Shown here piece by piece: positions 2,422 to 46,338 of a DNA stretch of 64,000 bases. The DNA is from a bacterium (lineage in GTDB: Bacteria; Patescibacteriota; Minisyncoccia; 2-02-FULL-40-12; IGHO2-01-FULL-4-A). How positions within the stretch are numbered: the stretch's first letter is position 1; every line of letters begins with the position of its first letter. The position numbers were made by a program, and so were the translations under genes. The DNA is taken from assembly GCA_030698885.1 (NCBI GenBank), contig JAUYLN010000006.1, positions 1-64,000 of the forward strand. Reading direction: 5' to 3'. Under the pieces are notes generated by a model. It was not told the origin of the DNA. It saw nothing but the letters and a program-made list of their open reading frames with translations, and did not search any database.

Positions 2422-3606
2422 ATGGAATTTAATATCATAAAAAAATCTAAAAAGTCGCGGGCCAGATTGGGGCTATTAAATACCGACCACGGTGTTGTTG
2501 AGACGCCTGCTTTGGTTACGGTAGCAACGCAGGCATCAATAAAAACATTAACGAGCGAAGAGGCGGAATCAGTGGGTAGTCAATTACTGATTGCCAATAC
2601 TTTTCACCTTCATTTAAGGCCCGGAGAAAACATAGTAAAAAACGCAGGGGGGATTCATAAATTTATGAATTGGAATAGGCCTTTAATGACTGACTCCGGC
2701 GGTTTTCAGGTTTTTAGTTTAGGTTTCGGAAGCGACTTAAATATAGGCAAATCAGTAAAAAAAAATTCTAATCTGATCGCCATGCCTGCGCATGCAGGTC
2801 GGGTAGGGCAAAGCAAAGAAGTTATAAAAGAGGGGAGCAATCCAAAAAATGTTAAAATAACCGATGATGGAGTTTATTTTTCATCTCCCATTGATGGTAG
2901 AAAACTTTTCATTGGTCCTAAAGAATCTGTGAGGATACAGGAGTCTTTGGGTGCAGATATCATTTTTTCTTTTGATGAATGTCCGCCCCCGCTGGCATCA
3001 AAGGCTTATATTGCTCAATCTCTAAATAAGACTAATCGTTGGGCGGAAATCTGTATTAAAACAAAAAAGAGTAAGCAGGCACTTTTTGGCATAGTGCAAG
3101 GTTCAAGGTTTAAAGATTTGAGGGAGCAAAGCGCAAAATATACAAATTCTTTAGGGTTTGATGGTTTTGGCATAGGCGGAGATTTTGGCAAAGATAAAAA
3201 AGAAACTTCAGATATTATTCTATGGTCAACAAAATATCTTGACCCTAAAAAACCAAGACACATGCTCGGCATTGGGCATCCGGAGGATATTGAAAATGTA
3301 ATAAAAAACGGTATTGATACGTTTGATTGTACCGTGCCGACTCATTATGCCAGGAGAGGTATTGCTTTTCTAGATGATAAAGGCAAAAGGTTAGACTTAA
3401 GGAAGTCAAAATTTCTGAAAGACCAAAAACCCCTTGATCCGAAATGTTCCTGTAATGTTTGTCGGAGCTACAGAAGGTCATATCTGTGCCATCTTATAAA
3501 GGCGAATGAGATTACGGGCATGCATTTGCTTACTTTGCATAATCTGTATTTTTTCAATTCTTATATTGCAGGAATAAGAGAAAAAATAAAAAGGGGAACT
3601 ATTTAA
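2422..3606 (+). CDS. tgt: Queuine/preQ1 tRNA-ribosyltransferase (TGT)
   Basis: Exchanges guanine 34 of GUN-anticodon tRNAs for a queuine precursor. The 394 residues hold the family signatures: MTDSGGFQVFSLG near residue 90 with the catalytic Asp, FSFDECPPP, the substrate-pocket strand FGIVQGSRFKDLRE, GIGGDFG, the second essential Asp in GIDTFDCTVPTHYARRG, and a zinc site CSCNVC with a downstream Cys-His pair. Length fits the bacterial enzyme (about 370-390) plus an extra loop: residues 121-130 (MPAHAGRVGQ) come from a GC-rich dispersed repeat at 2781-2810, and the following ~20 residues are also poorly conserved. No other queuosine gene is in the window, so base salvage is possible. ATG start; upstream signal weak. 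Confidence 0.93.
   Translation: MEFNIIKKSKKSRARLGLLNTDHGVVETPALVTVATQASIKTLTSEEAESVGSQLLIANTFHLHLRPGENIVKNAGGIHKFMNWNRPLMTDSGGFQVFSLGFGSDLNIGKSVKKNSNLIAMPAHAGRVGQSKEVIKEGSNPKNVKITDDGVYFSSPIDGRKLFIGPKESVRIQESLGADIIFSFDECPPPLASKAYIAQSLNKTNRWAEICIKTKKSKQALFGIVQGSRFKDLREQSAKYTNSLGFDGFGIGGDFGKDKKETSDIILWSTKYLDPKKPRHMLGIGHPEDIENVIKNGIDTFDCTVPTHYARRGIAFLDDKGKRLDLRKSKFLKDQKPLDPKCSCNVCRSYRRSYLCHLIKANEITGMHLLTLHNLYFFNSYIAGIREKIKRGTI
2781..2810. repeat. GC-rich repeat element inserted in frame in tgt
   Basis: ATGCCTGCGCATGCAGGTCG followed by GGTAGGGC. It encodes MPAHAGRVGQ in tgt. Related CCTGC/GCAGG elements occur in the terminator at 19812, in a broken tRNA at 23194, in proS at 39914 and between genes at 40530. 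Confidence 0.65.
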
Positions 3607-3613
3607 TTCCCCT

Positions 3614-4084
3614 TCATTTGCAGTGATTTTTTATGAACACTTTTATTGCACCCACCAGGTCTCTTTTTCTAACCAGTATATTTATTTCATGGTAGGGAAA
3701 TTTTTTGCCTGGTCTTCTTTGCTTGGGCCGTATTTTTAAAAGTATTTCTGCATCCCGCTCATGGGTGCCGGGTTTTGTGAAAGTTAGTTCCAGGTTATCA
3801 TTCTCTGCCGGTCTGATTATAATTTTTTCCTTTATCTCCCTTGTCTCAGTTATGCCATTTAGGACAATTTCGATATTTAAATTTTCAATCTGATTAATTC
3901 GTGATTTTAATTCGGTTAGCTTTATTCCAATAGCCATTTCCTGGTATTCGCCGTTGGGCTGTATAGGCACAAAAAACAGATGCCTAAAGTCGTCTGTATC
4001 TACGGCCCCCAGAATAACCTTGCTTTCACGGCTTTTGCCGACTCCTTTTACCACTAATCTTTCGTATTCTTCTTTTCTCGGCAT
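3614..4084 (-). CDS. Hypothetical protein, 156 aa
   Basis: I do not recognise the family. The protein is rich in beta-prone and charged residues (MPRKEEYERLVVKGVGKSRE at the N-terminus, then alternating hydrophobic strands) and ends in a basic stretch with KFPYHEINILVRKRDLVGAI. It has no signal peptide, membrane helix or cysteine pair. The ATG is preceded by GGAG seven bases upstream, which supports the start. It is convergent with tgt and divergent from the helicase-nuclease. An intracellular nucleic-acid binding role is possible from its charge but is only a guess. Confidence 0.6.
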   Translation of the reverse strand: MPRKEEYERLVVKGVGKSRESKVILGAVDTDDFRHLFFVPIQPNGEYQEMAIGIKLTELKSRINQIENLNIEIVLNGITETREIKEKIIIRPAENDNLELTFTKPGTHERDAEILLKIRPKQRRPGKKFPYHEINILVRKRDLVGAIKVFIKNHCK

Positions 4085-4212
4085 AATTTAACTCCGGCAA
4101 AAATTAAAAGTTCTTTTTATAAAATATGTTAAGGGTGATATTATGCAACTGGCGTAAGTTGAATAAACATTGTAATTTAAGAGTAGGTGGTAAGAATAAA
4201 TTAACTTAGCAG

Positions 4213-7182
4213 ATGGAATTATCTAAATTTAAACAATATTATAATCAGCTTAATAAAGAACAAAAGTTGGCCGTGGATGAGATAGAGGGTCCGGTAATGA
4301 TAGTGGCCGGACCGGGTACGGGTAAAACCCAGATATTAACTTTGCGAATAGCCAATATTCTTATTAAAACCGATGTCGGGCCGTCGGCAATTTTAGCGTT
4401 GACATTTACCGAGTCGGGAGTTTTTGCTATGCGCCAACGTCTGGAGGAGATTATAGGTACGCCGGCTTACGAAGTAAACATCAGCACTTTTCATGGTTTT
4501 TGCAATGATATCATTAAGGAATATCAGGAATATTTTCCGCATGTTGCCGGAGCAGAACATATTAACGAAGTGGAACAGGCAAAATTAATGGAAGGCCTGA
4601 TTTTGAATGCAGACCTCAAATATCTAAAACCTTTCGGCAGCAGGTTTCACTATCTTATGCCGGTTCTGGCTTCCATAAGGAAATTAAAGAGGGAAGGCGT
4701 GAGTCCTGATGAATTTTCTTCGTTAATAAAAAAAGAAGAACAAGCTTTTTCTCTGATAGACGATCTATATCATACAAAAGGCGCCCACAAGGGTAAGATG
4801 AAAGGCGACTATGTTAAGCTTCAGAATAATATAGCCAAAAACCAGGAGCTGGCGGTTTTATATTCCGGATACCAAAATGCTTTAAGGGTTAAAAAGTATT
4901 ATGACTACGAGGATATGATAATGGAAGCCCTCGCAGCTATCAGTAAAAATGAAGATCTTCTAAGGATTTTGCAGGAGCAATATCAGTACATTCTGGTTGA
5001 TGAACAGCAGGACACCAATAATGCCCAAAATAAAGTCGTTGAGCTTATCGCTAATTTTCATTCCAGCCCCAATGTTTTTATTGTGGGCGATGAGAAGCAG
5101 GCCATATACAGATTTCAGGGAGCGTCTTCGGAGAATTTCAGTTATTTCAAAAAATTATATCCGCAGGCTAAAACAATAGCTCTGGAGGACAACTATAGGT
5201 CTACCCAGGCAATACTTGATTCAGCGCATAACATAATCCAAGGGCCCGTAAGTCTTAGGGCAAATTCAAAAAACCACAACGAAAAACCTTCAATTTATTC
5301 TTTCTCTTCTCCCGAAAAAGAACATTATTTTATCGCCCAAGATATAAAAAATAAGATAGGCGAGGGGCTGGAGCCGGGAGAAATAGCAGTTTTGGTCAGA
5401 GACAATAAAGACATGATGCCGCTGGCCGATGCCATGGCCAGGCTCGGCCTGATGTTTACAGAAGAAGCCGACATTAATATTTTAAAAGACGCGGATATTA
5501 AAAAGTTTCTCATGCTTCTGAAAGCAATTAAAAATTATGGCGAGGCCGGTTCGTTAATTGAGGCCATGCATCTGGATTTTTTGAAGATAGTGCCCTTGGA
5601 TATTTATAAAATTGCTGAAACCGCCAGAGCAAACAGAATAAATCCCTATGATATTATAAGGTCGGAAAAATCTTTAATATCGGCGGGAGTGGAAGATACC
5701 GGGAGCATGCTCGGATTTTATAAGAATATTTCTCATTGGAAGACATATTCAAAAAATCATACCCTGGAAGAGCTATTGGAAGAAGTCATGAGGGGTTCCG
5801 GTTTTATGGCGGATGTTTTATCCGGGCAGTCTTACATCAGACTGGAGAAGGTCAGAATACTTTTTGACAAGGTTAAAGAATTTGTTGAGCGCAATAAAAA
5901 TATCAGTTTGGACGATTTTTTTGATAATCTGGATACTCTGAAGGAACATAATATACGTATCGGCGGTAATATAAGTTTCGCCGACGCTAATTCCGTGAGG
6001 ATTATGACCGCTCACAGGTCAAAGGGAAGGGAATTCGGCCATGTTTATGTTGCAAGTGCCCATGACGGCCATTGGGGCAATAAAAGGTCTTTTGAGATTC
6101 TCCATTTGCCGGAGAGTGTTTTTATGAAAGGGACTTCTGTCGGCAGGAGTAATGACAAGAATCAGGATGAGCGTAATCTTTTCTATGTAGCATTAACCAG
6201 AGCTAAACATAAAGCTATTTTAACATATTCGCGGGAAGGCTTGGGTGGCCGTCAGCAGCTCCCGTCTCAATTTATAAACGAGATTGAAGGATTGTCCCAA
6301 GTTTTAAGTTCAGATGAATACGAAAAGAAATTTGATGCTTCCGGATTTTTATTTTTACCCAAATCTCAAAAAGGGCCGGGCATAAAAGATAAAGATTTTA
6401 TCAGTTCAATTTTTGCTAAGAGGGGAATTTCGGTTACCTCATTGAATAATTATTTAAAATGTCCGTGGCGTTATTTTTACACAAACCTTGTTGAGATACC
6501 CAAGGCAAAAACCAAACATCAGATGTATGGCACCGCCGTTCATGCATCATTAAAGCGTTTTTTTGACAGTTATGGAGCCGGCCAGCCGATGGATAAGAAA
6601 AAATTACTGGAGGTTTTTAAAGAGTCTCTGGATAAAGAACCTTTAAACGAGCAAGACTATGCCGAGTCTTTAAAAAAGGGCGACGCCTCATTGGCAGGTT
6701 ACTTTGATAATTACAACGGCAAGTGGACGGGCAACGTCTTAAATGAGTTGAGAATAAAAGGCGTTCAGCTATCACCCGGCGTTGTTATAAACGGCCAGAT
6801 TGATAAGCTGGAAATTTCAAACGATGGAAGCGTAGGTGTTGTTGATTATAAGACCAGCAAACCTAAGTCGCGGAATGATATAGAAGGTAAAACAGCATCA
6901 TCTGGCGGTGACTACAAGCGTCAGTTGGTTTTTTATAACTTACTGCTCAATAATTATGATAAGGGAAAATATAAAATGTCATCAGGCCAAATTGATTTTG
7001 TTGAGCCGGATGCTAAGGGTAAATATAAAAAAGAAATATTTGAGATTGCTCCCCGGGAAGTTAAAGACCTTGAAGCATCTGTAATTAAAATGGCTGATGA
7101 AATTTTAAATTTAAAATTCTGGGATGGCAGGTGTGATGACAGAAATTGTGAATTCTGTCTGCTTAGAGAGATGATGGTATGA
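4213..7182 (+). CDS. UvrD/Rep-type SF1A helicase fused to a C-terminal PD-(D/E)XK Fe-S nuclease
   Basis: A 989-residue DNA repair motor. Helicase motifs appear in order: Walker A AGPGTGKTQ (Lys38), the DExQ-type box VDEQQDTNNAQ, GDEKQAIYRFQGA, DNYRSTQAI, TAHRSKGREF and FYVALTRAKHK. After about residue 740 a RecB/AddB-like nuclease follows: LNNYLKCPWRYFY, GTAVHASLKRF, GQIDKLEI, VVDYKTSKPK (catalytic D-x-K) and KRQLVFYNLL. One Cys in LKCPW plus C-x4-C-x2-C near the end (RCDDRNCEFC) match the four-Cys iron-sulfur staple of AddB-type nucleases. The fusion could act as a one-polypeptide end-resection enzyme feeding RecA (encoded at 62628). No RecB/RecC or AddA partner is in the window. Confidence 0.9.
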   Translation: MELSKFKQYYNQLNKEQKLAVDEIEGPVMIVAGPGTGKTQILTLRIANILIKTDVGPSAILALTFTESGVFAMRQRLEEIIGTPAYEVNISTFHGFCNDIIKEYQEYFPHVAGAEHINEVEQAKLMEGLILNADLKYLKPFGSRFHYLMPVLASIRKLKREGVSPDEFSSLIKKEEQAFSLIDDLYHTKGAHKGKMKGDYVKLQNNIAKNQELAVLYSGYQNALRVKKYYDYEDMIMEALAAISKNEDLLRILQEQYQYILVDEQQDTNNAQNKVVELIANFHSSPNVFIVGDEKQAIYRFQGASSENFSYFKKLYPQAKTIALEDNYRSTQAILDSAHNIIQGPVSLRANSKNHNEKPSIYSFSSPEKEHYFIAQDIKNKIGEGLEPGEIAVLVRDNKDMMPLADAMARLGLMFTEEADINILKDADIKKFLMLLKAIKNYGEAGSLIEAMHLDFLKIVPLDIYKIAETARANRINPYDIIRSEKSLISAGVEDTGSMLGFYKNISHWKTYSKNHTLEELLEEVMRGSGFMADVLSGQSYIRLEKVRILFDKVKEFVERNKNISLDDFFDNLDTLKEHNIRIGGNISFADANSVRIMTAHRSKGREFGHVYVASAHDGHWGNKRSFEILHLPESVFMKGTSVGRSNDKNQDERNLFYVALTRAKHKAILTYSREGLGGRQQLPSQFINEIEGLSQVLSSDEYEKKFDASGFLFLPKSQKGPGIKDKDFISSIFAKRGISVTSLNNYLKCPWRYFYTNLVEIPKAKTKHQMYGTAVHASLKRFFDSYGAGQPMDKKKLLEVFKESLDKEPLNEQDYAESLKKGDASLAGYFDNYNGKWTGNVLNELRIKGVQLSPGVVINGQIDKLEISNDGSVGVVDYKTSKPKSRNDIEGKTASSGGDYKRQLVFYNLLLNNYDKGKYKMSSGQIDFVEPDAKGKYKKEIFEIAPREVKDLEASVIKMADEILNLKFWDGRCDDRNCEFCLLREMMV

Positions 7183-25813: not shown

Positions 25814-25853
25814 CCCAATCAAAAATCCCGCCTAGGCGGGATTTTTGATTGGG
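25814..25853. terminator. 40-bp perfect palindromic terminator between the module and the UDG gene
   Basis: CCCAATCAAAAATCCCGCCT is followed by its exact complement. Flanking CTTTGAC / GTCAAAG extend the pairing. It can terminate both convergent transcripts. Confidence 0.85.
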
Positions 25854-26396
25854 TCAAAGTAGCTCTTTAATTTTGGCCAGCCCTTTTCTAAATTTGTGTC
25901 CCCAGTTTGGGTTTCGAAGAATTGCGGCAGGATGATAAACAACCAATATCTTTCGTCCATTTTTTTCTATTACCTGGCCATGGTTTTGGCTCATTGTGCC
26001 TTCAATGCCAAGACCGGTCATGGCTATTCGGCCAAGGACAACAATAAGTTCCGGATTAATAATCGCAATTTCTTTTTCAAGCTCCGGTCGGAATTTTTCT
26101 ATTTCTTCCGGTGTCGGCGTTAATGTTTTGCCGTATTGGTCTTGGGGTCGGTATTTGACTATGTTTGAAACGTAAAAATCGCTTCTTTGCCAGCCGAGGG
26201 CCTCAAGTGTTGCATTCAGTAATCTACCTGCTCTGCCGACAAATGGTTTGCCTTGTTTTTCTTCATCTTTTCCGGGCGCTTCGCCTACTATCATTATTTG
26301 TGAGTCCGGAGAGCCGTCGCTGAAAACCAGAGTTTTTTTAGGATAGGCTTTTTTTATGGTATCCCATGTATGCTCTATTTTTTGACTTTTTGTCAT
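25854..26396 (-). CDS. Uracil-DNA glycosylase, family 4-like but without Fe-S cysteines
   Basis: A 180-residue repair glycosylase removing uracil from DNA. Motif A reads GEAPGKDEEKQGKPFVGRAG and motif B VVYHPAAILRNP, as in families 4/5. The family 4 enzyme normally has four Cys holding a 4Fe-4S cluster, two near the N-terminus and two around NVVKCRP...C; here the protein has no cysteine at all, with NIVKYRP and KFRPEL at the second site. The catalytic residues themselves are preserved. The minus-strand start at 26396 lacks a ribosome-binding site. Confidence 0.88.
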   Translation of the reverse strand: MTKSQKIEHTWDTIKKAYPKKTLVFSDGSPDSQIMIVGEAPGKDEEKQGKPFVGRAGRLLNATLEALGWQRSDFYVSNIVKYRPQDQYGKTLTPTPEEIEKFRPELEKEIAIINPELIVVLGRIAMTGLGIEGTMSQNHGQVIEKNGRKILVVYHPAAILRNPNWGHKFRKGLAKIKELL

Positions 26397-26456
26397 AATT
26401 ATGATATAAAAAAAGAAGATTATTAACCTTTACAATTAAAACAAAAAGGAGTGTGA

Positions 26457-27173
26457 ATGGCAAAACCAAAGGAAAAGATAAGGGCGCTTGCCTTCGATTT
26501 GGGTAGTGTTTTGGTGGATGTAGACTTTACTCCTATGTTTAACAGAATACTGCCACATACTGATTATTTAAACCTTGAAGATTTACGTAGGGTAGCGCCT
26601 ATTCATGAGCATCATTTTAGGAGTGAATCCGCGCGACGTTTTAATCTGGGCAGTATGAGTTCTAATGATTATTATAAAACTTTTTGTTCTGAGGTGGGCA
26701 TTGATGAAGGTAGCCGTGCTCATGAGATGTGTAGTTTTTCTTATGATAATTTTGTTCATGCCTTTAGTAATAATGTTTTTTCTGAAATTGAAGAAATGTC
26801 CGAACTGATAGCAGAGGTAAGTCCCCAGCTTGAAATGATGATAATGATTACTAATATCAATGAACTTCATTATGATTTTTTAAGAGAGAAGTTTCCGCAT
26901 GTTTTTAAGCCATTTGGGCAGAACATTATAGCTTCTTATCGGGTTAAATTAATGAAGCCCGACGACAGGATTTATAAGCTTGCTATTAAACGTTTGGCGT
27001 CAAGGGGGATAAGGCGAGAAGAAGCACTGTTCATTGATGATATGGCAGAGAACACACACGGTGCCAAGGGGGTTAAAATAAAAACTTTTTGGTTTGACCG
27101 CAAAACGCCTTTGCCGAAGTTAATGAAAGAACTTAAGGGTAGACTTAGGGGTCACGGCCTTAATTTAAGTTAA
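26457..27173 (+). CDS. HAD-superfamily hydrolase (subfamily IA-like)
   Basis: A 238-residue protein. HAD motif I is AFDLGSVLVDVD, motif II IMITNIN (Thr in place), motif III lysine in MKPDDRIYKLAI and motif IV ALFIDDMAENTHGA. A helical cap lies between motif I and II. These features fit phosphatases acting on small phosphorylated metabolites. Motif I reads D-L-G rather than D-x-D, as in the epoxide hydrolase/haloacid group, which may lower or change phosphatase activity. Strong AAAGGAG precedes the ATG. Confidence 0.85.
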   Translation: MAKPKEKIRALAFDLGSVLVDVDFTPMFNRILPHTDYLNLEDLRRVAPIHEHHFRSESARRFNLGSMSSNDYYKTFCSEVGIDEGSRAHEMCSFSYDNFVHAFSNNVFSEIEEMSELIAEVSPQLEMMIMITNINELHYDFLREKFPHVFKPFGQNIIASYRVKLMKPDDRIYKLAIKRLASRGIRREEALFIDDMAENTHGAKGVKIKTFWFDRKTPLPKLMKELKGRLRGHGLNLS

Positions 27174-27232: not shown

Positions 27233-27304
27233 GCGCGTGTAGCTCAGCGGTAGAGCACGTCACTGATAATGACGGGGTCCATGGTTCGATTCCATGCACG
27301 CGCA
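27233..27304 (+). tRNA. tRNA-Ile (anticodon GAT)
   Basis: Acceptor GCGCGTG/CACGCGC, D-arm TAGCTCAGCGGTAGAGC, anticodon stem CGTCA/TGACG with loop CTGATAA giving GAT, T-arm CATGGTTCGATTCCATG. CCA is not encoded. The MazG-like gene starts 17 bases downstream. Confidence 0.94.
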
Positions 27305-27320
27305 CAAAAACAAATTTATT

Positions 27321-27626: not shown

Positions 27627-27701
27627 GGGCCGTTAGCTCAGCGGTAGAGCACCTCATTTGCAATGAGGGGGTCAGCGGTTCAAATCCGCTACGGTCCACC
27701 A
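27627..27701 (+). tRNA. tRNA-Ala (anticodon TGC), CCA encoded
   Basis: Acceptor GGGCCGT/ACGGTCC, D-arm TAGCTCAGCGGTAGAGC, anticodon stem CCTCA/TGAGG with loop TTTGCAA giving TGC, T-arm GCGGTTCAAATCCGC. Discriminator A is followed by CCA. The wobble G-T pair in the acceptor is not the G3-U70 position usual for Ala recognition in this reading; pairs are G-C, G-C, G-T, C-G, so a G3:T70 pair is in fact present. Confidence 0.94.
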
Positions 27702-27807: not shown

Positions 27808-28716
27808 CTAAAAGAACGAATACTGAAGGCAGAATTGAAAGCGGCTGCCTTCATATTTGAGGGTGCCCTGCTCATTATTTTTAGCTCGGTACATAGAGCA
27901 GCTAGCACATTTCATTAATACCTTAATACTGCTGTCTATGTTTTTTATCTCTTCTTTCGGACGGGGCAGTGAGAACGGGACAACTCCAATGTCCAGCCCC
28001 ATGGTGATTTTACGTTCATCAGACGCCCCTATGACCTTATTCCAATTGTATTTGTTCAGGGCTTCAGCAAATCTTTTTACTACCCCTACAATGCTATCGC
28101 TTTCGTTGGGGAAGCTTGTGAGAAATGCCCCGAACTCATCTCCGCCCAGGCGACCAAAGATATCGTCTGGAGATAGCCTAATAGTTGATGGAAATAGTTC
28201 GGTTATTTTTTCTAGCAGAAGGTCTCCGGCCGGATGCCCAAATGTGTCGTTGACAAACTTGAGTTTCCTCACATCGCAGAAGATGAACGTGCAACTAAGC
28301 ATCCGCTCCCCTTCTTTAAAAATGTACCGAACCCTCTCATTGAATTCGTCTTTTGTAAGAAGCCCTGTCGTTTTATCAACCCTTTTTGATTCGAGGTCTT
28401 TTCTTAGGCTCTCAACCTGAAGTTTCAAGCTCTTGATTTCTTCATCGTATAAAGACGCCGAATTGACCAAGGTTTGGAATATTCTGTTGCTTGTTTTTCT
28501 AAGTTGTTCCAGTTGCTCGTCTTGGAGCTTTAGTCGCTCACGAAAATTTTTAATAGACTTGGCATGTAGTTCGTGTGTTATGGAACGCAGAACAAGCTTT
28601 GTTTCTTCCGGGAGGTTAGATTCCTTTAGGAACCTCAGTTCAGGTGTATATTTTGTGAGCGCTGTTTCGTTGTTGGTATCCGGTATCACATGAACGTTCG
28701 CGAGCTTTGCTTTCAC
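27808..28716 (-). CDS. GGDEF-domain protein, putative diguanylate cyclase
   Basis: A ~302-residue cytoplasmic protein. The N-terminal half is a helical coiled coil (HAKSIKNFRERLKLQDEQLE to KSLKLQVESLRKDLES) that may dimerise. The C-terminal half is a GGDEF domain: DKTTGLLTKDEFNERV, FCDVRKLKFVNDTFGHPAGD and an intact active loop GRLGGDEFGAF, so c-di-GMP synthesis is plausible. The inhibitory RxxD I-site is absent (Ser at the Arg position). I choose the GTG at 28716 because GGAGGG lies six bases before it; a TTG six bases earlier would touch that site. No EAL, HD-GYP or PilZ partner is in the window. Confidence 0.87.
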   Translation of the reverse strand: MKAKLANVHVIPDTNNETALTKYTPELRFLKESNLPEETKLVLRSITHELHAKSIKNFRERLKLQDEQLEQLRKTSNRIFQTLVNSASLYDEEIKSLKLQVESLRKDLESKRVDKTTGLLTKDEFNERVRYIFKEGERMLSCTFIFCDVRKLKFVNDTFGHPAGDLLLEKITELFPSTIRLSPDDIFGRLGGDEFGAFLTSFPNESDSIVGVVKRFAEALNKYNWNKVIGASDERKITMGLDIGVVPFSLPRPKEEIKNIDSSIKVLMKCASCSMYRAKNNEQGTLKYEGSRFQFCLQYSFF

Positions 28717-28826
28717 AGGCAACCCTCCGAGGGAAGTCTATAAGCAGAACCTATCTCAAAGTACCGCTAGTATAATACTATATAATATCTCGCCATGTCA
28801 ATAGTTTAAAATGCAATATCTTGACG

Positions 28827-28874
28827 ATATTCTCCACTCCCGGTGTGGAATTCCACACCGGGAGTGGAGAATAT
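28827..28874. repeat. 48-bp perfect palindrome upstream of the beta-oxidation operon
   Basis: Arms ATATTCTCCACTCCCGGTGT GGAA and the exact complement meet at a GAATTC centre with no loop. It lies between the divergent GGDEF gene and the thiolase promoter. It could be an operator, a terminator-like cruciform or a replication-derived repeat. Confidence 0.85.
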
Positions 28875-28889: not shown

Positions 28890-28918
28890 TGGACGAATAT
28901 TGGTAAGGTTGCTATATT
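28890..28918 (+). promoter_or_regulatory. Promoter of the thiolase-multifunctional protein operon
   Basis: TGGACG, 17-bp spacer, extended -10 TGC-TATATT. The start codon is about 31 bases after the expected transcription start. The 48-bp palindrome ends 16 bases upstream of the -35. Confidence 0.6.
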
Positions 28919-28955: not shown

Positions 28956-30317
28956 ATGGGAAAAACTGTAATTGTTGATGGTTTCAGAACTCCTTTTTGC
29001 AAAGCCGGCACGCATTTCAAAAATATAGAGCCTTATTTTTTAGCGGCCATGGCTGTTAAAGAGATGACACAGCGTATGAACGGTTGGGGTATGAAACCGG
29101 GCGAAGTTGATAGGGTAGTTGGCTCTAATGTAGCTACGCCCATTAACGCCCCCAATATTGCCAGAGTCGCAGCGACCATGGGCGGTTTGCCTGATTCTGT
29201 CGTTGCCGATGGTATTAATAAAAACTGCGGTTCCGGAGTCGCGGCAATAAATTACGGCCGGATGTATATTGAGTCGGGCCAGGCCGATACGGTTATGGTG
29301 GTTGGTGTTGAGTCTATGAGTAAGATAGTCCTTGCTTATGATGAAAGGGTAAAAGAAATTTTTACTTTGCTTAGTATGTCCAGGACACCTTCGGAAAAAG
29401 TAAGGAATCTTTTCCGGCTCATTCCAAAATTAATCCGCTTTCAAAAATATCCGCCTCAATCCGGTTTAGTGCTCGGGTTAACTGATCCGATTTGTAATCA
29501 GATAATGGGTAAAACAGCGGAAAATATAGCGAGAGCATTTAATATCAGCAGACAAGAGCAAGACGCTTTTGCTTGCAGGTCCAATAATCTGGCCGAGCAA
29601 GCTGATAAGGCGGGCTTCTTTAAAAAGGAAGTCTGGCCGGTTTTTGCAGCGAGTAAATTTATTAAACACGACAATGGTATTCGTAACAGTCAGACAGTAG
29701 AAAATCTTGCCAGGTTGAAACCTGTTTTTGATAAAAAATATGGTACGGTTACGGCCGGCAATTCCTCACAGGTTACGGATGGCGCGGCCTGCATGCTTCT
29801 TATGGCGGAAGAAAAAGCTAAAGCATTCGGTCTGCCCATACTGGGCCGTGTCGGTGTCTATGCTGATGCCGGATATAAGCCGGAATTTATGGGCTTAAGC
29901 CCGGTTCTGGCAATTGCAAAACTGCTTAAGGCAACCGGACTTTCTATCAAAGATTTTCCGGTCATTGAGCTGAACGAAGCATTTGCCTCTGTTGCTGTGG
30001 CTTGCATGATGACGATGGATAGCGATGCTTTAATGAAAAAGTGGTTTGGTGATTATGGGTTTACTAAAGCTCTGGGCAGGATAGAAAATGACCAGATTAA
30101 TCTTAATGGCGGTGCGATAGCGTTGGGCCATCCGCCCGGCGTTAGCGGATTGCGGCTTGCCATAACGGCCTTATGTGAGCTTGCCAGAAAAAGTGAAGGC
30201 CGGCCGGCTTTGATAAGCGCTTGCGTTGGCGGAGGTCAGGGCGTGGCCATGATACTTGAACGGTTCGACTCCGCTCACCGTAAACAATCTGATTCTGCTC
30301 ACCAGAGGAGGGGCTAG
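28956..30317 (+). CDS. fadA: Acetyl-CoA acyltransferase (thiolase)
   Basis: A 453-residue thiolase that cleaves 3-ketoacyl-CoA with CoA, the last step of beta-oxidation (or condenses acetyl-CoA). Catalytic residues are intact: Cys91 in KNCGSGVAAI, NEAFASVAV, His392 in GGAIALGHPPG and Cys423 in SACVGGGQG. The sequence is longer than the usual ~390-400 because of an insert near residues 130-175 (LLSMSRTPSEKVRNLFRLIP) typical of FadI/trifunctional-type enzymes. The last residues (FDSAHRKQSDSAHQRRG) come from a repeat-like stretch at 30264-30305. GGAG before the ATG. It ends 2 bp before the next gene. Whether fadA or fadI is the better name is open. Confidence 0.92.
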   Translation: MGKTVIVDGFRTPFCKAGTHFKNIEPYFLAAMAVKEMTQRMNGWGMKPGEVDRVVGSNVATPINAPNIARVAATMGGLPDSVVADGINKNCGSGVAAINYGRMYIESGQADTVMVVGVESMSKIVLAYDERVKEIFTLLSMSRTPSEKVRNLFRLIPKLIRFQKYPPQSGLVLGLTDPICNQIMGKTAENIARAFNISRQEQDAFACRSNNLAEQADKAGFFKKEVWPVFAASKFIKHDNGIRNSQTVENLARLKPVFDKKYGTVTAGNSSQVTDGAACMLLMAEEKAKAFGLPILGRVGVYADAGYKPEFMGLSPVLAIAKLLKATGLSIKDFPVIELNEAFASVAVACMMTMDSDALMKKWFGDYGFTKALGRIENDQINLNGGAIALGHPPGVSGLRLAITALCELARKSEGRPALISACVGGGQGVAMILERFDSAHRKQSDSAHQRRG

Positions 30318-30319
30318 TT

Positions 30320-32479
30320 ATGAAACCGAATTTTCAACTTAGGAATTTCAAAACGCGCTTGTTGGATAACGGGATATTACTCATCGGATTTGACCATGTG
30401 GGAAGGCAGGTCAATGTTTTAAGCAGTGATGTTCTATACGAATTGGCTGATGTTGCAACTTACGAAGTTTTAGAAAACGAAAAAGTAAAGGGTGCAGTTG
30501 TGGTCAGCCTGAAGGATTCTTTTATAGCAGGTGCGGATATAGAAGAAATTGCTTCTATTTCAAAGAAAGAAGAATGTGAGTCACTGGTTAAATTCGCCCA
30601 CTCTTTATTTGATGCCATGTCCTATTCTCCAAAACCTTTTGTAGCCGCAATAGAGGGCGCATGTTTTGGCGGGGGATTTGAACTTGCTCTGGCCTGTGAC
30701 TGGAGAGTCGCCAGTGATCGTCCCGGAACTGTATTCGGCTTGCCCGAAGTGAAACTCGGTATAATTCCCGGTTTTGGCGGGACTCAAAGGTTGCCTAAAT
30801 TAACGAACCTTGACCAGGCTCTGGATATAATAATGACAGGCAAAAGCATCTACCCTTACCCCGCCCTGAAGAGAGGGTTGATTGATGATTTGGTCGGCCA
30901 TTCCGATGTCTTTTGCCGGAGCATCGCTACAATTGATAAAGAGAGATTTGTTCAGGTGGCTGTCCAAAGAGCTATTGAGTTAGCTTCGGAAAAAAAACTA
31001 AAGCGTAAAAAACTTGGGCTCGGATTTATGAGTCAGATGTCGGGTTGGCCTGTTGCCAGAAATTTTACATTCATGCAGGCCCGTAAATTAGCCGGAAAAT
31101 CAACCGGTGGCCATTATCCGGCACCGTTGGAAGCGCTTGAGGCCATAAAGAATGGACTTGGCAAGAAAACAATTAATGGTTGTCTTGAAGCTGAAATGCC
31201 CAGACTTCTTGAGTTGATAGTTTCTCCGCTTTCAAAAGATCTGATAGATGTTTATTTTCAGAACGAAAAGGCGAAGAAATCAGTTGTGAGAAGGGCGGTT
31301 AAGAATGGGGGTCGGATAGATGTTATGGGGGCAGGATTAATGGGAACTCAAATTGCCGGGCAATTGTCTGCAAAAGGTTTTGATGTTTTGCTTAAAGATA
31401 TAAGCTACGACGTCTTGGCCTCGGCCAAAGCGTTTATTGAAAAGTCCGAAAGGGAAAATTTAAGAAAGCGGACCATTTCTCAAAGTGAATTTGAAAAGCG
31501 ACTATTGAGAGTAAGTCCGACCATAGACATGAAGTCTTTTGCGGGGACCTCTTTCGCCATAGAAGCTGTCGCCGAGAACATTGAATTAAAAAGAAAATTA
31601 CTGGCCGAGTTTGAAGATGTTGCCCTGTTCGATGCTATATTTGCTACCAATACCTCTTTCTTTATGGTTTCAGAAATTGCTTCCAGAGCTAAACACAGAG
31701 AGCGTTGTGTCGGAATGCATTTTTTCAATCCGGTGGGCAAGATGCCACTGGTTGAAGTGGTTAGGGCTGAATTTACCAGTCAGCAAGCCGTTGATACTGC
31801 ATTGTGGCTGGCAGGCAGACTGGGCAAAGTTCCGATTCTGGTAGGTGATGGTCCCGGATTTTTGGTGAACAGGATACTCGCACGATATATGACAGAAGCT
31901 CTTTTCTTGCTGGCCGATGGCCTGACCATTGAAGATATTGACGGAGCGGCGAAGAGATACGGTATGGCCATTGATTCCGGCCGACCCATGGGGCCGTTTA
32001 GGCTCATTGATTTTGTCGGAATAAAAACCGCGTATAGCGCTCTTAAATCTTCTAAAAAACTTGGGCCTAGAATGAATGCCCCGGAGTTCATAGAAAGTGT
32101 TGCTGAAAAAAATATGACTTTTTATCTGGACAAAGAAGAAAATCCCGGTATTTATACCATGCTGACAGTTGATTATGGTTGGTCAAGAAAAAAGCTTGCG
32201 GAAAAAGAAATTCAAGACAGATTGTTTTTGCCGATGGTGGACGAGGCGTTGCGCTGTATCGGAGGAGGCATAATCAGTGACCCCAAACAGCTTGATCTGG
32301 CAATGCTCCTTGGAGCAGGCTTCCCGGCTTTTCGGGGAGGATTACTGAAGCATGCTGTTAGGAATAACATGAACAGAGTCCACGACGATATAGAGAAATT
32401 AGCTTTTCATAATACCAGATTCTGGCCGTTTGAAGATTTTCTGGCGGTAGCCAGAGTAGTTGAAGGATATTATAGATAA
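30320..32479 (+). CDS. fadB: Fused enoyl-CoA hydratase / 3-hydroxyacyl-CoA dehydrogenase
   Basis: A 719-residue multifunctional beta-oxidation protein. Hydratase domain (1-200): AGADIEEIASI oxyanion loop, CFGGGFELALACDWR and FGLPEVKLGIIPGFGGTQR, with both catalytic Glu present. Dehydrogenase domain (from about 330): Rossmann motif DVMGAGLMGTQIAG, CVGMHFFNPVGKMPLVEVVR with the catalytic His near residue 466, and DGPGFLVNRIL. A C-terminal repeat domain finishes the chain. It would hydrate enoyl-CoA and oxidise the hydroxyacyl-CoA with NAD. GAGGAGGGG precedes the ATG. It is co-transcribed with the thiolase, the typical fadBA-type pairing in reverse order. FadJ is an equally valid name. Confidence 0.94.
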   Translation: MKPNFQLRNFKTRLLDNGILLIGFDHVGRQVNVLSSDVLYELADVATYEVLENEKVKGAVVVSLKDSFIAGADIEEIASISKKEECESLVKFAHSLFDAMSYSPKPFVAAIEGACFGGGFELALACDWRVASDRPGTVFGLPEVKLGIIPGFGGTQRLPKLTNLDQALDIIMTGKSIYPYPALKRGLIDDLVGHSDVFCRSIATIDKERFVQVAVQRAIELASEKKLKRKKLGLGFMSQMSGWPVARNFTFMQARKLAGKSTGGHYPAPLEALEAIKNGLGKKTINGCLEAEMPRLLELIVSPLSKDLIDVYFQNEKAKKSVVRRAVKNGGRIDVMGAGLMGTQIAGQLSAKGFDVLLKDISYDVLASAKAFIEKSERENLRKRTISQSEFEKRLLRVSPTIDMKSFAGTSFAIEAVAENIELKRKLLAEFEDVALFDAIFATNTSFFMVSEIASRAKHRERCVGMHFFNPVGKMPLVEVVRAEFTSQQAVDTALWLAGRLGKVPILVGDGPGFLVNRILARYMTEALFLLADGLTIEDIDGAAKRYGMAIDSGRPMGPFRLIDFVGIKTAYSALKSSKKLGPRMNAPEFIESVAEKNMTFYLDKEENPGIYTMLTVDYGWSRKKLAEKEIQDRLFLPMVDEALRCIGGGIISDPKQLDLAMLLGAGFPAFRGGLLKHAVRNNMNRVHDDIEKLAFHNTRFWPFEDFLAVARVVEGYYR

Positions 32480-32484
32480 TTTCA

Positions 32485-32507
32485 AGCTCCCTAAGCGGGA
32501 GCTTTTT
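32485..32507 (+). terminator. Terminator of the thiolase operon
   Basis: AGCTCCC / GGGAGCT stem, loop TAAGC, then TTTTT; the next promoter starts four bases later. Confidence 0.8.
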
Positions 32508-32510
32508 ATA

Positions 32511-32539
32511 TAGACATTCTTCTTATGGGTTGCTATATT
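32511..32539 (+). promoter_or_regulatory. Promoter of the acyl-CoA dehydrogenase gene
   Basis: TAGACA, 17-bp spacer, TGC-TATATT. The -10 block GGTTGCTATATT is identical to that of the thiolase operon, which may mean joint regulation. Confidence 0.65.
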
Positions 32540-32583
32540 CTGGGCAGATAACCGCCCTTTTTAAATTTAATAAGGAGTAGGAA

Positions 32584-34605
32584 ATGGACCCCCAACTTAA
32601 AAAAGCTAAACAGCTTATGAAAATGACAGCCGGAGACGGAGAGCCGAGTTTTGCGGATGGACTTTCTTCTGGCAAGGTTGACATGGATTTTTTGAAAAGT
32701 TTAAAACTTGAAAACCCCTTTGATAAAAATTTCAATAAATATTTTAAATGGGCTGATGAGTATCTAAGGGCAGAAGTTGATCCCGCTGACATTGAAAGAA
32801 ATGCCAAGGTTCCGCTTGATAAACTTATGAAATTAAGTCAGTCCTTGCTTGGCGCCAAAATCCCGGCTGAATACAACGGCTTGGGACTTAGCACTACTCA
32901 ATATTGTTATCTGATGAAATTACTTTCAAGTTGTCACTCTTCGCTGGGTATATGGTTTACGGCCAACTGCTCTATAGGTTTAAGCGGGTATTTATTGGTT
33001 GTGCATAATGAACTTAAGAAAGAAAAAGCAAAAATAGAAAAAAAGATACGAGAGGCAAAGACTCCTCCGGAAGATCCGGATAATTTATCGAATAAATTGA
33101 ATGAAGTAATCTTATTGCTTGAGAGGACTGAATGGCAGATGTCTGAATTCCTGCCAAAGCTGGCCGCAGGCGCTAACGCGGGATTTGGCTTAACACAGCA
33201 AACCGCAGGCTCTGATCCGGGCGGGATGATAGGTAGCGATACCCGTGCGCACAGAATAGGCAACGGGAAAATACGCTTAGTCGGTCATAAGCTTTACAAT
33301 ACTAATGCCACGCTTGCCGAGTTTGAAGTAATAATGGCACCGGGTCCTGATTCAGATCACGAAATCTCAACTTTTATTGTTCCGACAAGGGGTTATGGTA
33401 AGTTTCATATCATACCCTTGGATTTCGCCGGTAACAGAGGAATAGAGAATGGAGCAATCCTTTTCAATGTAATTATTCCGGAAAAATTTATGGTCGGCCG
33501 GCAGGGAGAGGGCCTGAAGAATGCCTTAAAGACTCTCAATGTCGGGCGCCTGGCTATGGCGGCGGGGGCGTCTGCTTCTATCGCTCAGTGTTTGCAGATT
33601 AGCCGTTGGTGGTGCAAGGTCAGAGTTCAGATGGGACTGCCAATAGGCAAATACAAGCAAAATGCCGTAAGGGTTGCCAGAATGGCCTCAAATGCCTTCG
33701 CCGTTGAGGCGCTTATGCATATCGGTGCATCCGTTTATGATCAATTTAAACCAAGGCACGATATGCGTCTAATGACGGCGGCCATAAAATATTGGTCAAC
33801 TGAGATGGCTCTTGATGCGGCAATAAAGAATATGCAGATAAGAAGCGGGCATGGTTATGAGACATATGAGTCGCAGGTGAGAAGAAAAGAGTTTATTGAA
33901 CCTCATGAGATTCCTTTGCCTGACGAAAGATTCATAGACGATTCTTTGGTGATGTTGATAGGCGAAGGTACAAGTGATATTCAAAAACTTGTGATATTTG
34001 GCGTTATGGCATCACCGCACCTAGCAAGGGTTATGCCCATTATTGATTCCAGTTTGCCTGTATCAAAAAGGCTTGTAGCTGTTGTTAAACTGCCTTATTA
34101 TCTGCCGTGGATTTTCATGCGCTTTATAAAATTTATTTTTTCAATTGTTGTTGTGCCTTCCGGCAGTCCGCTAAGAAAGCATGTCAGCTATATTAATCGG
34201 CAGAGCCAGAAGATGGCCCTTAAATTACTTTGGAATCTGGCGAAAGATAGGGTGGGGTTATTGAAAGAAAATATTGTTACCGGATTTATGGCAAAACAGA
34301 TTACAGAGCTTATGGTTATGTCATTTGTTTGCCGGTATGCCGAGGAGCTTTATTCCAAATGTGGCAATATAGTTTTTGAAGTGGCCGATGTGTTCTGCGG
34401 ATATGCCCGAGCAAGGATTAATGGTCTTCATGAAGATGTGCCGATGCCTAACGTAGACGCCAAGGCCTATAAGCTGGCCCAAAAAATTATTTTTCCGGAT
34501 AAAAATAAAGACGGCAAGTCAGCGTCAGAATTCCTGGAGAAAAATATTATCTCAATTCTGGAGAGAGAGATTAAAAGACATGGTGATAAATTGAGCTATA
34601 CATAA
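32584..34605 (+). CDS. Acyl-CoA dehydrogenase, long form
   Basis: A 673-residue FAD enzyme for the first oxidation of acyl-CoA. Core features: GFGLTQQTAGSDPGGMIG (FAD/substrate loop), VGRQGEGLKNALKTLNVGRL, and the catalytic Glu461 in LIGEGTSDIQK. It resembles VLCAD-type enzymes in having about 190 extra residues after the core (including a hydrophobic patch, WIFMRFIKFIFSIVVV) that may bind the membrane. A charged insert at residues 143-175 (KKEKAKIEKKIREAKTPPED) is not part of the usual fold. Strong AAGGAG before the ATG. It has its own promoter and terminator. No electron-transfer flavoprotein gene is nearby. Confidence 0.92.
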   Translation: MDPQLKKAKQLMKMTAGDGEPSFADGLSSGKVDMDFLKSLKLENPFDKNFNKYFKWADEYLRAEVDPADIERNAKVPLDKLMKLSQSLLGAKIPAEYNGLGLSTTQYCYLMKLLSSCHSSLGIWFTANCSIGLSGYLLVVHNELKKEKAKIEKKIREAKTPPEDPDNLSNKLNEVILLLERTEWQMSEFLPKLAAGANAGFGLTQQTAGSDPGGMIGSDTRAHRIGNGKIRLVGHKLYNTNATLAEFEVIMAPGPDSDHEISTFIVPTRGYGKFHIIPLDFAGNRGIENGAILFNVIIPEKFMVGRQGEGLKNALKTLNVGRLAMAAGASASIAQCLQISRWWCKVRVQMGLPIGKYKQNAVRVARMASNAFAVEALMHIGASVYDQFKPRHDMRLMTAAIKYWSTEMALDAAIKNMQIRSGHGYETYESQVRRKEFIEPHEIPLPDERFIDDSLVMLIGEGTSDIQKLVIFGVMASPHLARVMPIIDSSLPVSKRLVAVVKLPYYLPWIFMRFIKFIFSIVVVPSGSPLRKHVSYINRQSQKMALKLLWNLAKDRVGLLKENIVTGFMAKQITELMVMSFVCRYAEELYSKCGNIVFEVADVFCGYARARINGLHEDVPMPNVDAKAYKLAQKIIFPDKNKDGKSASEFLEKNIISILEREIKRHGDKLSYT

Positions 34606-34624: not shown

Positions 34625-34647
34625 CCCCGCCTGAGCGGGGCTTTTTG
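34625..34647 (+). terminator. Terminator of the acyl-CoA dehydrogenase gene
   Basis: CCCCGC / GCGGGG stem with CTGA loop and TTTTT. Confidence 0.8.
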
Positions 34648-34859: not shown

Positions 34860-36227
34860 ATGAAATGCAGTGAAGGAATATCTAAATTCATACTTGATTT
34901 GTCAGAAAAATATCCGAGCCAGACTGAATTCATTCAGGCAGTGGAAGAAGTAGTCAGGTCTGTTTATCCTATTGTCAAAGAAAACTCTATTTATCGCAAG
35001 CATAAAATTTTGGAACGTTTAGTGGAGCCGGATAGGAGCGTTTCTTTCAGAGTAGATTGGACGGATGATAAAGGCCAGGTGAGAACCAATCGCGGATACA
35101 GAGTTCAGTTTAACAATGCGCTCGGGCCGTATAAGGGCGGATTGCGTTTTCATCCGACCGTCAACCTGGGCATTTTGAAATTTCTGGGCTTTGAGCAGAT
35201 TTTTAAGAACAGTCTTACGGGACAATCCCTTGGCGGTGCCAAGGGTGGGTCTGATTTTAACCCTATGGGCAAATCTGACCTTGAAGTTATGAGGTTTTGC
35301 AACTCCTTTATGGAGAAACTTCACCGGGAGATTGGGCCTGACAGAGATACGCCGGCCGGAGATATAGGCGTTGGCTTGCGGGAGATAGGATATCTTTTCG
35401 GAAGCTTCCGCAGATATGAGAATGATTTGTTCTTGCCAAGCGCTATTACCGGTAAAGGCCCTGATTGGGGAGGAAGTTTGCTAAGGCCCGAAGCTACGGG
35501 ATACGGCCTGATATTATTCCTGGAAGAAATGCTTAAAGTAGTAAACCATTCTTTGAGCGGAAAAAGAGTCTGCATATCCGGTTCTGGCAACGTGGCCCAG
35601 TATGCGGCGGAAATGGCCATTGAATCCGGAGCTAAAGTTTTAACCATGTCAGATTCTTCCGGCTTTATATTTGATAAGAACGGATTATCTAAAGATAAAC
35701 TCAAATTTATCATGCTTTTAAAGAACGAACAGCGGGGGAGAATAAAACAATTTGCCGATGAATTTGACGGTGTTGAATATTTAACGGGGAGTTCCGATGA
35801 TAGTCGCAGGCCATGGAGATATGTTAAGTGCGATATAGCATTGCCTTGCGCGACCCAGAATGAGATAAACGAAGATGACGCCGGGGCATTGGTAGAAAAT
35901 GGTGTCATGGCCGTTGCCGAAGGCGCCAATATGCCGAGCACCAAAGAAGCTATTAGAGTTTTTAAGTCTGCCGGTGTTTTATTCGGACCCGCTAAAGCTG
36001 CTAATGCCGGAGGAGTCGCCGTTTCCGGTTTCGAGATGTCGCAAGACAAATCGGGTGTTCGGTGGACCAGAGCAGAAGTATTGGCCAAGCTTAGAGATAC
36101 TATGCTTGAGATACACAAGAGATGCACCGAATTTGGAACAAGGTCAGGATGCATTGATTATGTAGAAGGCTCTAATATAGCAGGATTTAAAAGAGTTGCT
36201 GACGCTATGGTTGCTCAAGGACTATAA
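34860..36227 (+). CDS. gdhA: NADP-type glutamate dehydrogenase
   Basis: A 455-residue hexameric enzyme interconverting glutamate and 2-oxoglutarate plus ammonia. Signatures: GPYKGGLRFHPTVNLGILKF, LGGAKGGSDFNP with the catalytic Lys at about residue 128, RDTPAGDIGVGLREIGYLFG, and the nucleotide-binding SGSGNVAQYAAEMAIESG followed by SDSSG, where Ser at the end of the second strand favours NADP. Length and motifs match the E. coli-type GdhA. AAGGAG lies nine bases upstream. It follows the beta-oxidation genes in the same direction but with its own spacer and terminator. Confidence 0.95.
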   Translation: MKCSEGISKFILDLSEKYPSQTEFIQAVEEVVRSVYPIVKENSIYRKHKILERLVEPDRSVSFRVDWTDDKGQVRTNRGYRVQFNNALGPYKGGLRFHPTVNLGILKFLGFEQIFKNSLTGQSLGGAKGGSDFNPMGKSDLEVMRFCNSFMEKLHREIGPDRDTPAGDIGVGLREIGYLFGSFRRYENDLFLPSAITGKGPDWGGSLLRPEATGYGLILFLEEMLKVVNHSLSGKRVCISGSGNVAQYAAEMAIESGAKVLTMSDSSGFIFDKNGLSKDKLKFIMLLKNEQRGRIKQFADEFDGVEYLTGSSDDSRRPWRYVKCDIALPCATQNEINEDDAGALVENGVMAVAEGANMPSTKEAIRVFKSAGVLFGPAKAANAGGVAVSGFEMSQDKSGVRWTRAEVLAKLRDTMLEIHKRCTEFGTRSGCIDYVEGSNIAGFKRVADAMVAQGL

Positions 36228-36241
36228 TTTTAGATGTAATC

Positions 36242-36265
36242 AAAACCTCTCAGAAGAGGTTTTTT
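36242..36265 (+). terminator. Terminator of gdhA
   Basis: AAAACCTCT / AGAGGTTTTTT with a CAGA loop. Confidence 0.8.
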
Positions 36266-36278
36266 GTTTTCTGTGTGG

Positions 36279-36284
36279 TATAAT
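36279..36284 (+). promoter_or_regulatory. Extended -10 (TGG-TATAAT) directly before the DUF2784-like gene
   Basis: TATAAT ends eight bases before the TTG start at 36293, so transcription would begin at or next to the start codon. A -35 is not clear. Confidence 0.45.
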
Positions 36285-36292
36285 TATCTAAG

Positions 36293-36667
36293 TTGGGCAA
36301 CTATAGGCACAAATTATTGGCCGACATTTTGTTTTTAATCCATTTCGGGTGGCTTTTGATGTTGGCCGCCGGGACTGTTTATATGTTTTTCAATAGGGGA
36401 TATGTTATTACTCATTTGATAATTTTGTCCGGGACTCTTGCCTTAAACTTACCATTTCGTGGCAGGTGCCCGCTGACCTTATGGGAGGGCAAGTATAGGA
36501 AGCTTTGGGACCCTAATTCTGATTATATGTTTGATTCTTTTGTGGCTACCCACATGAAAAGCATTCTAAAAATAAACATGACCCCAAAACAGGCCAATCG
36601 TATGCTTACAGTTATTAAGCTGTCGGCCTATGGTATTATTACTCTTATGTTGACTAAGGTAATTTAA
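36293..36667 (+). CDS. DUF2784-like small membrane protein
   Basis: A 124-residue protein with about three hydrophobic helices (LLADILFLIHFGWLLMLAAG, VITHLIILSGTLALNLPF, VIKLSAYGIITLMLTKVI) and the segment GRCPLTLWEGKYR, which resembles the CPLTxLE signature of DUF2784. The TTG at 36293 is the first start in the frame and sits 8 bases after a TATAAT, so the mRNA may be leaderless. Function unknown. Confidence 0.65.
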   Translation: MGNYRHKLLADILFLIHFGWLLMLAAGTVYMFFNRGYVITHLIILSGTLALNLPFRGRCPLTLWEGKYRKLWDPNSDYMFDSFVATHMKSILKINMTPKQANRMLTVIKLSAYGIITLMLTKVI

Positions 36668-36691
36668 TATGCTAACTTACGCCTTATAACT

Positions 36692-37012
36692 ATGAGCTTT
36701 GCGATAATAAAAACCGGAGGAAAGCAATATAAAGTCGCCGAAGGCGATAAGTTTTTAATTGAAAAACTGGACCACGAAGTCGGTAAAGAGTTTGATTTTG
36801 AAGAGGTTTTACTTGTAGGAAATGAGAAGATAGAGAGTTTGAAAGTCGGCCAGCCGCTAGTAGAAGGTGCCAAAGTCCATGCCAGAGTTCTTGAGCAGGG
36901 CAAAGCCAAAAAGAAAATAGTTTTTAAATACTCAAACAAAACCCGTTACAAAAAGAAACGGGGACATCGTCAGCCATTCACCAAAGTTGAAATTCTAAAA
37001 ATATCAGCCTAA
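36692..37012 (+). CDS. rplU: 50S ribosomal protein L21
   Basis: A 106-residue L21 of normal length: SFAIIKTGGKQYKVAEGDKF, VLLVGNEK, VGQPLVEGAKVHARVLEQGK, and the RNA-binding tail KKRGHRQPFTKVEILKI. The usual neighbours rpmA and obg are not adjacent. The stop codon sits in the loop of the terminator hairpin. Confidence 0.97.
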   Translation: MSFAIIKTGGKQYKVAEGDKFLIEKLDHEVGKEFDFEEVLLVGNEKIESLKVGQPLVEGAKVHARVLEQGKAKKKIVFKYSNKTRYKKKRGHRQPFTKVEILKISA

Positions 37013-46292: not shown

Positions 46293-46338
46293 CTTAAAAA
46301 CATTCTAACATTCTGCAGAATGTTAGAATGTTTTTAAG
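46293..46338. terminator. 46-bp perfect palindrome, terminator of mnmA
   Basis: CTTAAAAACATTCTAACATT CTG and its exact complement meet at CTGCAG. The arm is itself two CATTCTAA-type units. It ends in a T-run on both strands. Confidence 0.8.

Follow-up and report, generated by a model that had tools for sequence, protein, structure and literature searches.

A beta-oxidation gene island in a Patescibacteriota genome and its interchangeable counterparts in related bacteria

Beta-oxidation genes in a genome of the candidate phyla radiation (CPR) were described in 2017 for Candidatus Parcunitrobacter nitroensis (Parcubacteria), where they occur with an electron-transfer flavoprotein (ETF) and a respiratory chain (PMC5220378), and a recent description of a genus stresses that beta-oxidation is absent (PMC11809585). 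Here we describe an island of three genes, encoding a thiolase, a fused enoyl-CoA hydratase (ECH)/3-hydroxyacyl-CoA dehydrogenase (HADH) and an acyl-CoA dehydrogenase (ACAD), at positions 28,956 to 34,605 of a 64,000-nucleotide stretch of DNA (hereafter the window; positions 1 to 64,000 of contig JAUYLN010000006.1, assembly GCA_030698885.1) from a bacterium of the phylum Patescibacteriota (Minisyncoccia; order 2-02-FULL-40-12; family IGHO2-01-FULL-4-A). Judged from its sequence, the island is a native, probably co-regulated module that would degrade scavenged long-chain fatty acids independently of ETF, and it would belong to a set of cassettes repeatedly gained and replaced at fixed chromosomal slots, a reading that we favor with modest confidence.

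Like the genome of Ca. Parcunitrobacter, that of the window holds ACAD, hydratase, dehydrogenase, thiolase, and an AMP-forming ligase, which were reported as highly divergent in the former (PMC5220378). There, however, ETF adjoins the pathway and an electron transport chain is described, whereas we found no ETF in the window's genome and no COX1 in its order; the window is further set apart by its fused FadJ-like enzyme and C-terminally extended ACAD. The FadI/FadJ trifunctional enzyme of Escherichia coli (8bnu, 8bnr) and the mitochondrial trifunctional enzyme (TFE) are comparable over nearly all of their length, as the fused protein aligns over residues 15-711 (full-length to the alpha subunit, 8bnu) and the thiolase over its whole length, but the window proteins come from a CPR host, fall into a separate clade, and score below the equivalog cut-offs (527 bits versus 869 for the FadJ model NF008363; 298.3 and 247.4 bits versus 560 and 711.55 for the FadI models NF006516 and TIGR02446), and are hence called FadI-like and FadJ-like only. 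An operon of the Planctomycetota genome B104T1B8 (locus L049) has exactly the window's gene order of thiolase, FadJ, and C-extended ACAD, although it is not from CPR and its proteins are 42%, 38%, and 30% identical to those of the window. As for the ACAD itself, the best solved-structure match by sequence is ACAD9, a dehydrogenase, and a C-terminal extension is common to both; the extension in the window nevertheless has no match to the ACAD9-ACADV C-terminal domain (PF21343), which separates it from the VLCAD/ACAD9 type. Our searches of the open literature turned up no account of ETF-free sets, cassette swapping, ECH-ACAD fusions in CPR, or the occurrence of this trait among Yanofskybacteria, which is not proof of their novelty, and fusions outside CPR were not searched for.

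The island and its host genome

All three enzymes bear marks of their families, in which the catalytic roles of the residues named here are established. The FadI-like 3-ketoacyl-CoA thiolase (28956..30317, plus strand; 453 aa) contains Thiolase_N (PF00108, 4e-67) and Thiolase_C (PF02803, 2e-35), is assigned to the acetyl-CoA C-acyltransferases by TIGR01930 (377.7 bits, cut-off 240.55), and retains Cys91, His392, and Cys423. The FadJ-like protein (30320..32479, plus strand; 719 aa) combines ECH_1 (PF00378), 3HCDH_N (PF02737), and 3HCDH (PF00725), each over its cut-off, in the manner of the FadB/FadJ/TFE-alpha type, and keeps Glu121 and Glu143 of the hydratase as well as His467 and Glu479 of the dehydrogenase. 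The ACAD (32584..34605, plus strand; 673 aa) has Acyl-CoA_dh_N (PF02771) and Acyl-CoA_dh_1 (PF00441) over the Pfam cut-off, Acyl-CoA_dh_M (PF02770) below it (29.5 bits versus 33.3), and the catalytic Glu461; alignment revealed an insertion in the N-terminal domain, and the C-terminal extension includes a hydrophobic stretch (residues 506-524) that could bind the membrane. No acyl-CoA oxidase Pfam match was obtained for this protein, and an AlphaFold model of it built from 3 sequences (mean pLDDT 37) was discarded. Thus, the adjacency of the three enzymes and the retention of their catalytic residues, as claimed by an earlier model-made reading of the letters and open reading frames (hereafter the sequence-only reading), were upheld, and its further claim that the two transcription units share an identical -10 block proved correct as well.

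The thiolase and fused genes lie 2 bases apart, and the ACAD gene has a promoter-like site of its own after a terminator-like hairpin (32484..32504, plus strand); a second such hairpin follows the ACAD gene (34625..34640, plus strand). The window contains exactly two copies of the 12-mer GGTTGCTATATT (0.01 expected), which precede the thiolase gene by 38 nt and the ACAD gene by 45 nt. In both units the 12-mer closes with an extended -10 box, which a spacer of 17 nt separates from a -35-like hexamer (TGGACG - 17 nt - TATATT at 28890..28918, with the 12-mer at 28907-28918; TAGACA - 17 nt - TATATT at 32511..32539, with the 12-mer at 32528-32539; both on the plus strand). Across the 957-kb genome the 12-mer is present 3 times (reversed-pattern control, 0), the third copy lying inside a peptidase-like coding sequence. 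As a marker of a wider regulon it was rejected, its only intergenic copies being the two of the island, and no close copy was found before the ligase and lipase genes discussed below.

The island is native to a CPR genome, contamination being excluded as far as sequence allows. The window covers almost the whole of a 64,843-base contig in an assembly that is 94.6% complete with 2.1% contamination, and rpoB, rpoC, and recA, recognized by sequence among the open reading frames, share this contig with the island. Over about 48 kb (window 1.1-49 kb), it is collinear, in reversed orientation, with contig 3 of a genome of the same family (G381; proteins 31-81% identical), and this collinearity extends across both flanks of the island. 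An orthologous cluster was moreover recovered from an independent assembly in the same order, that of Ca. Yanofskybacteria RIFCSPLOWO2_01_FULL_39_28 (G414). Collinearity with the same-family genome, together with this same-order Yanofskybacteria genome, identifies the host as CPR, as the sequence-only reading had held; that reading would have been overturned by a contaminant island or a non-CPR host, and the linkage to rpoB and recA that it had proposed to verify exists in the assembly. A contaminant or misassembled island is therefore highly improbable. Its G+C is slightly raised, and the FadJ-like protein shares about 50% identity with a counterpart from a contig (L048) that was binned as Methylomirabilis; yet G+C at third codon positions (GC3) is 0.41-0.44 in the three genes, close to the window mean of 0.39 (sd 0.03), so that a recent transfer is not indicated, and neither the shared contig nor the conserved flanks and the Yanofskybacteria cluster fit a contaminant.

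Upstream of the island, a gene for a GGDEF-domain protein (27808-28722) is oriented divergently; a diguanylate cyclase seems an uncommon feature for a genome of this small size. Between it and the first unit lies a 48-bp perfect palindrome with no spacer (28827..28874, no strand assigned), single-copy in the window, which is a possible operator. Two more spacer-less perfect palindromes occur in the window, at 46293-46338 and 25814-25853.

Unrelated cassettes at fixed slots

Comparison across the order revealed at least three unrelated types of cassette. Type I, as in the window, consists of FadI-like and FadJ-like genes with a C-extended ACAD and is also present in the Yanofskybacteria genome (thiolase 54%, FadJ 51% identical). 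Type II has a thiolase and an ECH-ACAD fusion, HADH being a separate protein in G407, G408, and G413 and itself fused to the thiolase in G411 and G420, and type III comprises HADH-ECH, SCP2-like thiolases, and ACADs, joined by a ligase in G400. The single-chain ECH-ACAD fusions are about 690 aa long (L037 3752-5824, L039 7389-9434, L041 4336-6447) and the thiolase-HADH fusions 830-847 aa (L038 6001-8544, L039 4693-7185); both are unusual domain orders among beta-oxidation enzymes.

Trees, which the sequence-only reading had called for, were built for the three enzymes. In the HADH tree, type I groups with non-CPR FadJ, and types II and III form branches of their own. In both the FadJ tree and the thiolase tree, the window, the Yanofskybacteria genome, and L048 come together (100/100) in a separate FadI-FadJ clade. 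The window ACAD sits on a long branch within a C-extended clade (100/100) shared with Planctomycetota, an actinobacterial replicon, a viral contig, and several CPR members, and the Yanofskybacteria ACAD is not its closest relative. Weak ACOX_C_alpha1 matches were seen in the ACADs of relatives.

Two further loci deserve mention here. On L048 (1-8307, binned as Ca. Methylomirabilis), genes for an AMP-ligase and a patatin-like phospholipase come after the FadI and FadJ genes that are nearest to the CPR ones; its G+C of 0.46-0.53 jumps to 0.64 after position ~5600, and the contig is either a transferred island or a chimera. A contig from a viral collection (L177, IMGVR_UViG_3300037264_002228; 98 kb) encodes at 2920-4689 a C-extended ACAD 31% identical to that of the window, with neighbors resembling dCMP deaminase and KdsA, and this gene is possibly a viral auxiliary acyl-CoA dehydrogenase. 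The fused protein had no match in the viral collection, and among the matches listed from the phage and plasmid collections there were only ordinary FadB/FadJ-type proteins (25-36%).

At fixed slots, most of them by a tRNA-Ile/tRNA-Ala pair or the tmRNA gene, one type of cassette is replaced by another. In the window, the slot is bounded on the left by a UDG-superfamily gene (25854-26396, minus strand) and a HAD hydrolase gene (26457-27173, plus strand), which together form a conserved flank (25854..27173), and by the genes for tRNA-Ile(GAT) (27233..27305) and tRNA-Ala(TGC) (27627..27701), both on the plus strand and common to relatives. Its conserved right flank (34860..37012, plus strand) holds an NADP-type glutamate dehydrogenase, a DUF2784 membrane protein, and rplU. 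Between these borders the window carries type I, and the same-family genome G381 carries a lone ACAD of 398 aa. In a second family (f2), the slot has a UDG-superfamily gene with transketolase halves on one side and tRNA-Ile on the other, and it is filled with type I in the Yanofskybacteria genome, with type II in four genomes (G407, G408, G413, G411), or with a lone FadE-like ACAD in three (G395, G397, G399); the cassette gene nearest to tRNA-Ile is mostly 38-408 bases away (~0.8 kb in G395). The type III cassette of G400 adjoins the same UDG-transketolase flank, and a direct comparison with the Yanofskybacteria genome, which belongs to the same genus, showed that this flank is 86-91% identical and the FadI/FadJ part replaced. 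Likewise, two genomes of one genus in family f154 share most flank proteins at 84-93% identity and differ in content (HADH plus ECH-ACAD in G386 versus a C-extended ACAD in G389), and two others (G412 and G384) have different cassette types near smpB and the tmRNA gene. Because the UDG gene alone is too weak a marker between families (27-31% identity) and was rejected as such, we accepted it only in combination with the HAD gene and the tRNA-Ile/tRNA-Ala pair.

Around the window island, the tRNA ends are not repeated, nor does any 13-nt direct repeat span the island, and classical integrase-type integration at a tRNA was rejected for want of att-like repeats there. Homologous exchange over the conserved flanks would be the simplest inference for what drives the swapping. 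A further lipid-related cluster, in which an HADH-ECH gene has aldehyde dehydrogenase-like and short-chain dehydrogenase-like neighbors, is kept in three genomes of one family (G380, G383, G385; L165-L167), and these neighbors recur in G427.

Proposed fatty acid degradation without ETF, and rival readings

The sequence-only reading had listed both acyl-CoA ligase and ETF as missing; the former claim failed and the latter stood. The genome holds one AMP-binding protein (569 aa, contig 10:561-2270), which we count as an acyl-CoA ligase; the NCBIfam models that fit it best are those of long-chain fatty acid CoA ligases, which it matches below their cut-offs, and homologues 33-37% identical exist in G403, G407, G412, and G414. 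The gene that lies 102 bases upstream of it, on its strand, encodes a 612-aa protein (L027 2373-4211) in which a hydrophobic N-terminal segment, a long middle part that is charged and repetitive, and a Pro/Ser/Thr-rich linker precede a GDSL lipase domain (E=2e-18). This lipase would be exposed at the cell surface, and its sequence presumably resembles TesA-like lysophospholipases. ETF (PF01012) was found neither in this genome nor in 46 relatives, the control genomes being positive in 10 of 14 cases, and no haem-copper oxidase was detected as COX1 in 45 genomes of the order.

These parts could form a pathway as follows. The GDSL lipase would free fatty acids from the phospholipids or lysophospholipids of neighboring cells, and the ligase would turn them, once taken up, into acyl-CoA; the ACAD, fused enzyme, and thiolase would then shorten acyl-CoA to acetyl-CoA, with the C-extended ACAD presumably reoxidized without ETF, via a membrane partner or oxygen. 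An ETF-free ACAD is made plausible by E. coli FadE, for which no ETF has been identified and whose activity raises H2O2 in cells (PMC11495604). Samples rich in CPR are enriched in lysolipids, and lipid import by CPR is assumed (PMC7242380), both of which are consistent with a lipid-using cell.

Several points weigh against degradation of scavenged fatty acids. Some genomes with fatty-acid genes (e.g., G411 and G408) have no ligase match, and the ligase and lipase could equally serve the salvage of membrane lipids. With the genome 94.6% complete, an ETF could sit in a gap, though hardly in all relatives. Finally, the long branch of the ACAD and its middle domain below the Pfam cut-off may indicate a changed function.

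The absence of both ETF and a terminal oxidase would also suit an ACAD that passes its electrons to oxygen and forms H2O2, as the acyl-CoA oxidases of peroxisomes do, and the ACOX_C_alpha1 matches of its relatives and the H2O2 raised by E. coli FadE (PMC11495604) point the same way. We nevertheless judge such an oxidase-like enzyme unlikely, given that the window ACAD lacks an acyl-CoA oxidase Pfam match and has ACAD9, a dehydrogenase, as its closest solved structure by sequence, and that the known member of the order comes, by its name, from an aquifer-sediment project, where oxygen may be scarce. The same genes might instead run in reverse, as an acyl-CoA elongation independent of acyl carrier protein (ACP) that would let a cell without fatty acid synthesis lengthen its chains. 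The thiolase, dehydrogenase, and hydratase steps are indeed reversible. ACP-dependent synthesis is missing from CPR, for which an ACP-independent route has been regarded as a possibility (PMC7242380). However, the reductive ACAD step would need a strong reductant, normally supplied via the ETF that is absent here, and the pairing of lipase and ligase indicates imported fatty acids, which makes reversal quite improbable. Equally doubtful is a limited beta-oxidation that tunes imported acyl chains to the length suited to the cell's own membrane, any gain of energy being incidental: such trimming would accord with the presumed lipid import of CPR (PMC7242380), the presence of the ligase, the small gain that electrons bring to cells without respiration, and the lone ACAD at the slot in several relatives, but full rounds are the better fit for a complete thiolase and fused enzyme that have a promoter in common.

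Distribution and significance

Beta-oxidation genes are a trait of the order. Strong HADH matches (E<1e-36) were obtained in 15 of its 45 genomes and ACAD in 21, and genomes with ACAD tend also to have HADH (p=8e-6) and AMP-ligase (p=7e-4), both values uncorrected for phylogeny. Among 379 genomes drawn across the phylum, by comparison, HADH (E<1e-25) was found in only three, the window's genome included, which agrees with the premise of the sequence-only reading that CPR are generally poor in fatty acid degradation genes. The set that it had singled out is real, but no lone oddity, as it recurs across the order; the cassette swapping and the fused enzymes of relatives did not figure in that reading. 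ETF was likewise present in three of the 379 genomes, none of them from this order; two of the three also gave weak ACAD matches, and in one (G039) the ETF and ACAD genes are near each other on a single contig.

For the whole order, we propose more tentatively, at somewhat less than even confidence, that beta-oxidation proceeds without any ETF, through C-extended ACADs or ECH-ACAD fusions that would hand electrons straight to a membrane partner or oxygen, and that this ability was acquired as interchangeable, unrelated cassettes in fixed slots, mostly by tRNA or tmRNA genes. CPR are seen as fermenting epibionts for which lipids taken from other cells are building material only. About one third of the sampled genomes of the order have beta-oxidation enzymes, and ETF was found in none of the genomes tested; this suggests that lipids scavenged from others may also serve as food, and the ETF-free sets point to an undescribed way of reoxidizing ACAD. 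That unrelated cassettes have been exchanged again and again at the same slots suggests that selection acts on the function and not on any one enzyme lineage, and the swapped cassettes offer a natural comparison set for tracing the electron acceptor of the ACAD.

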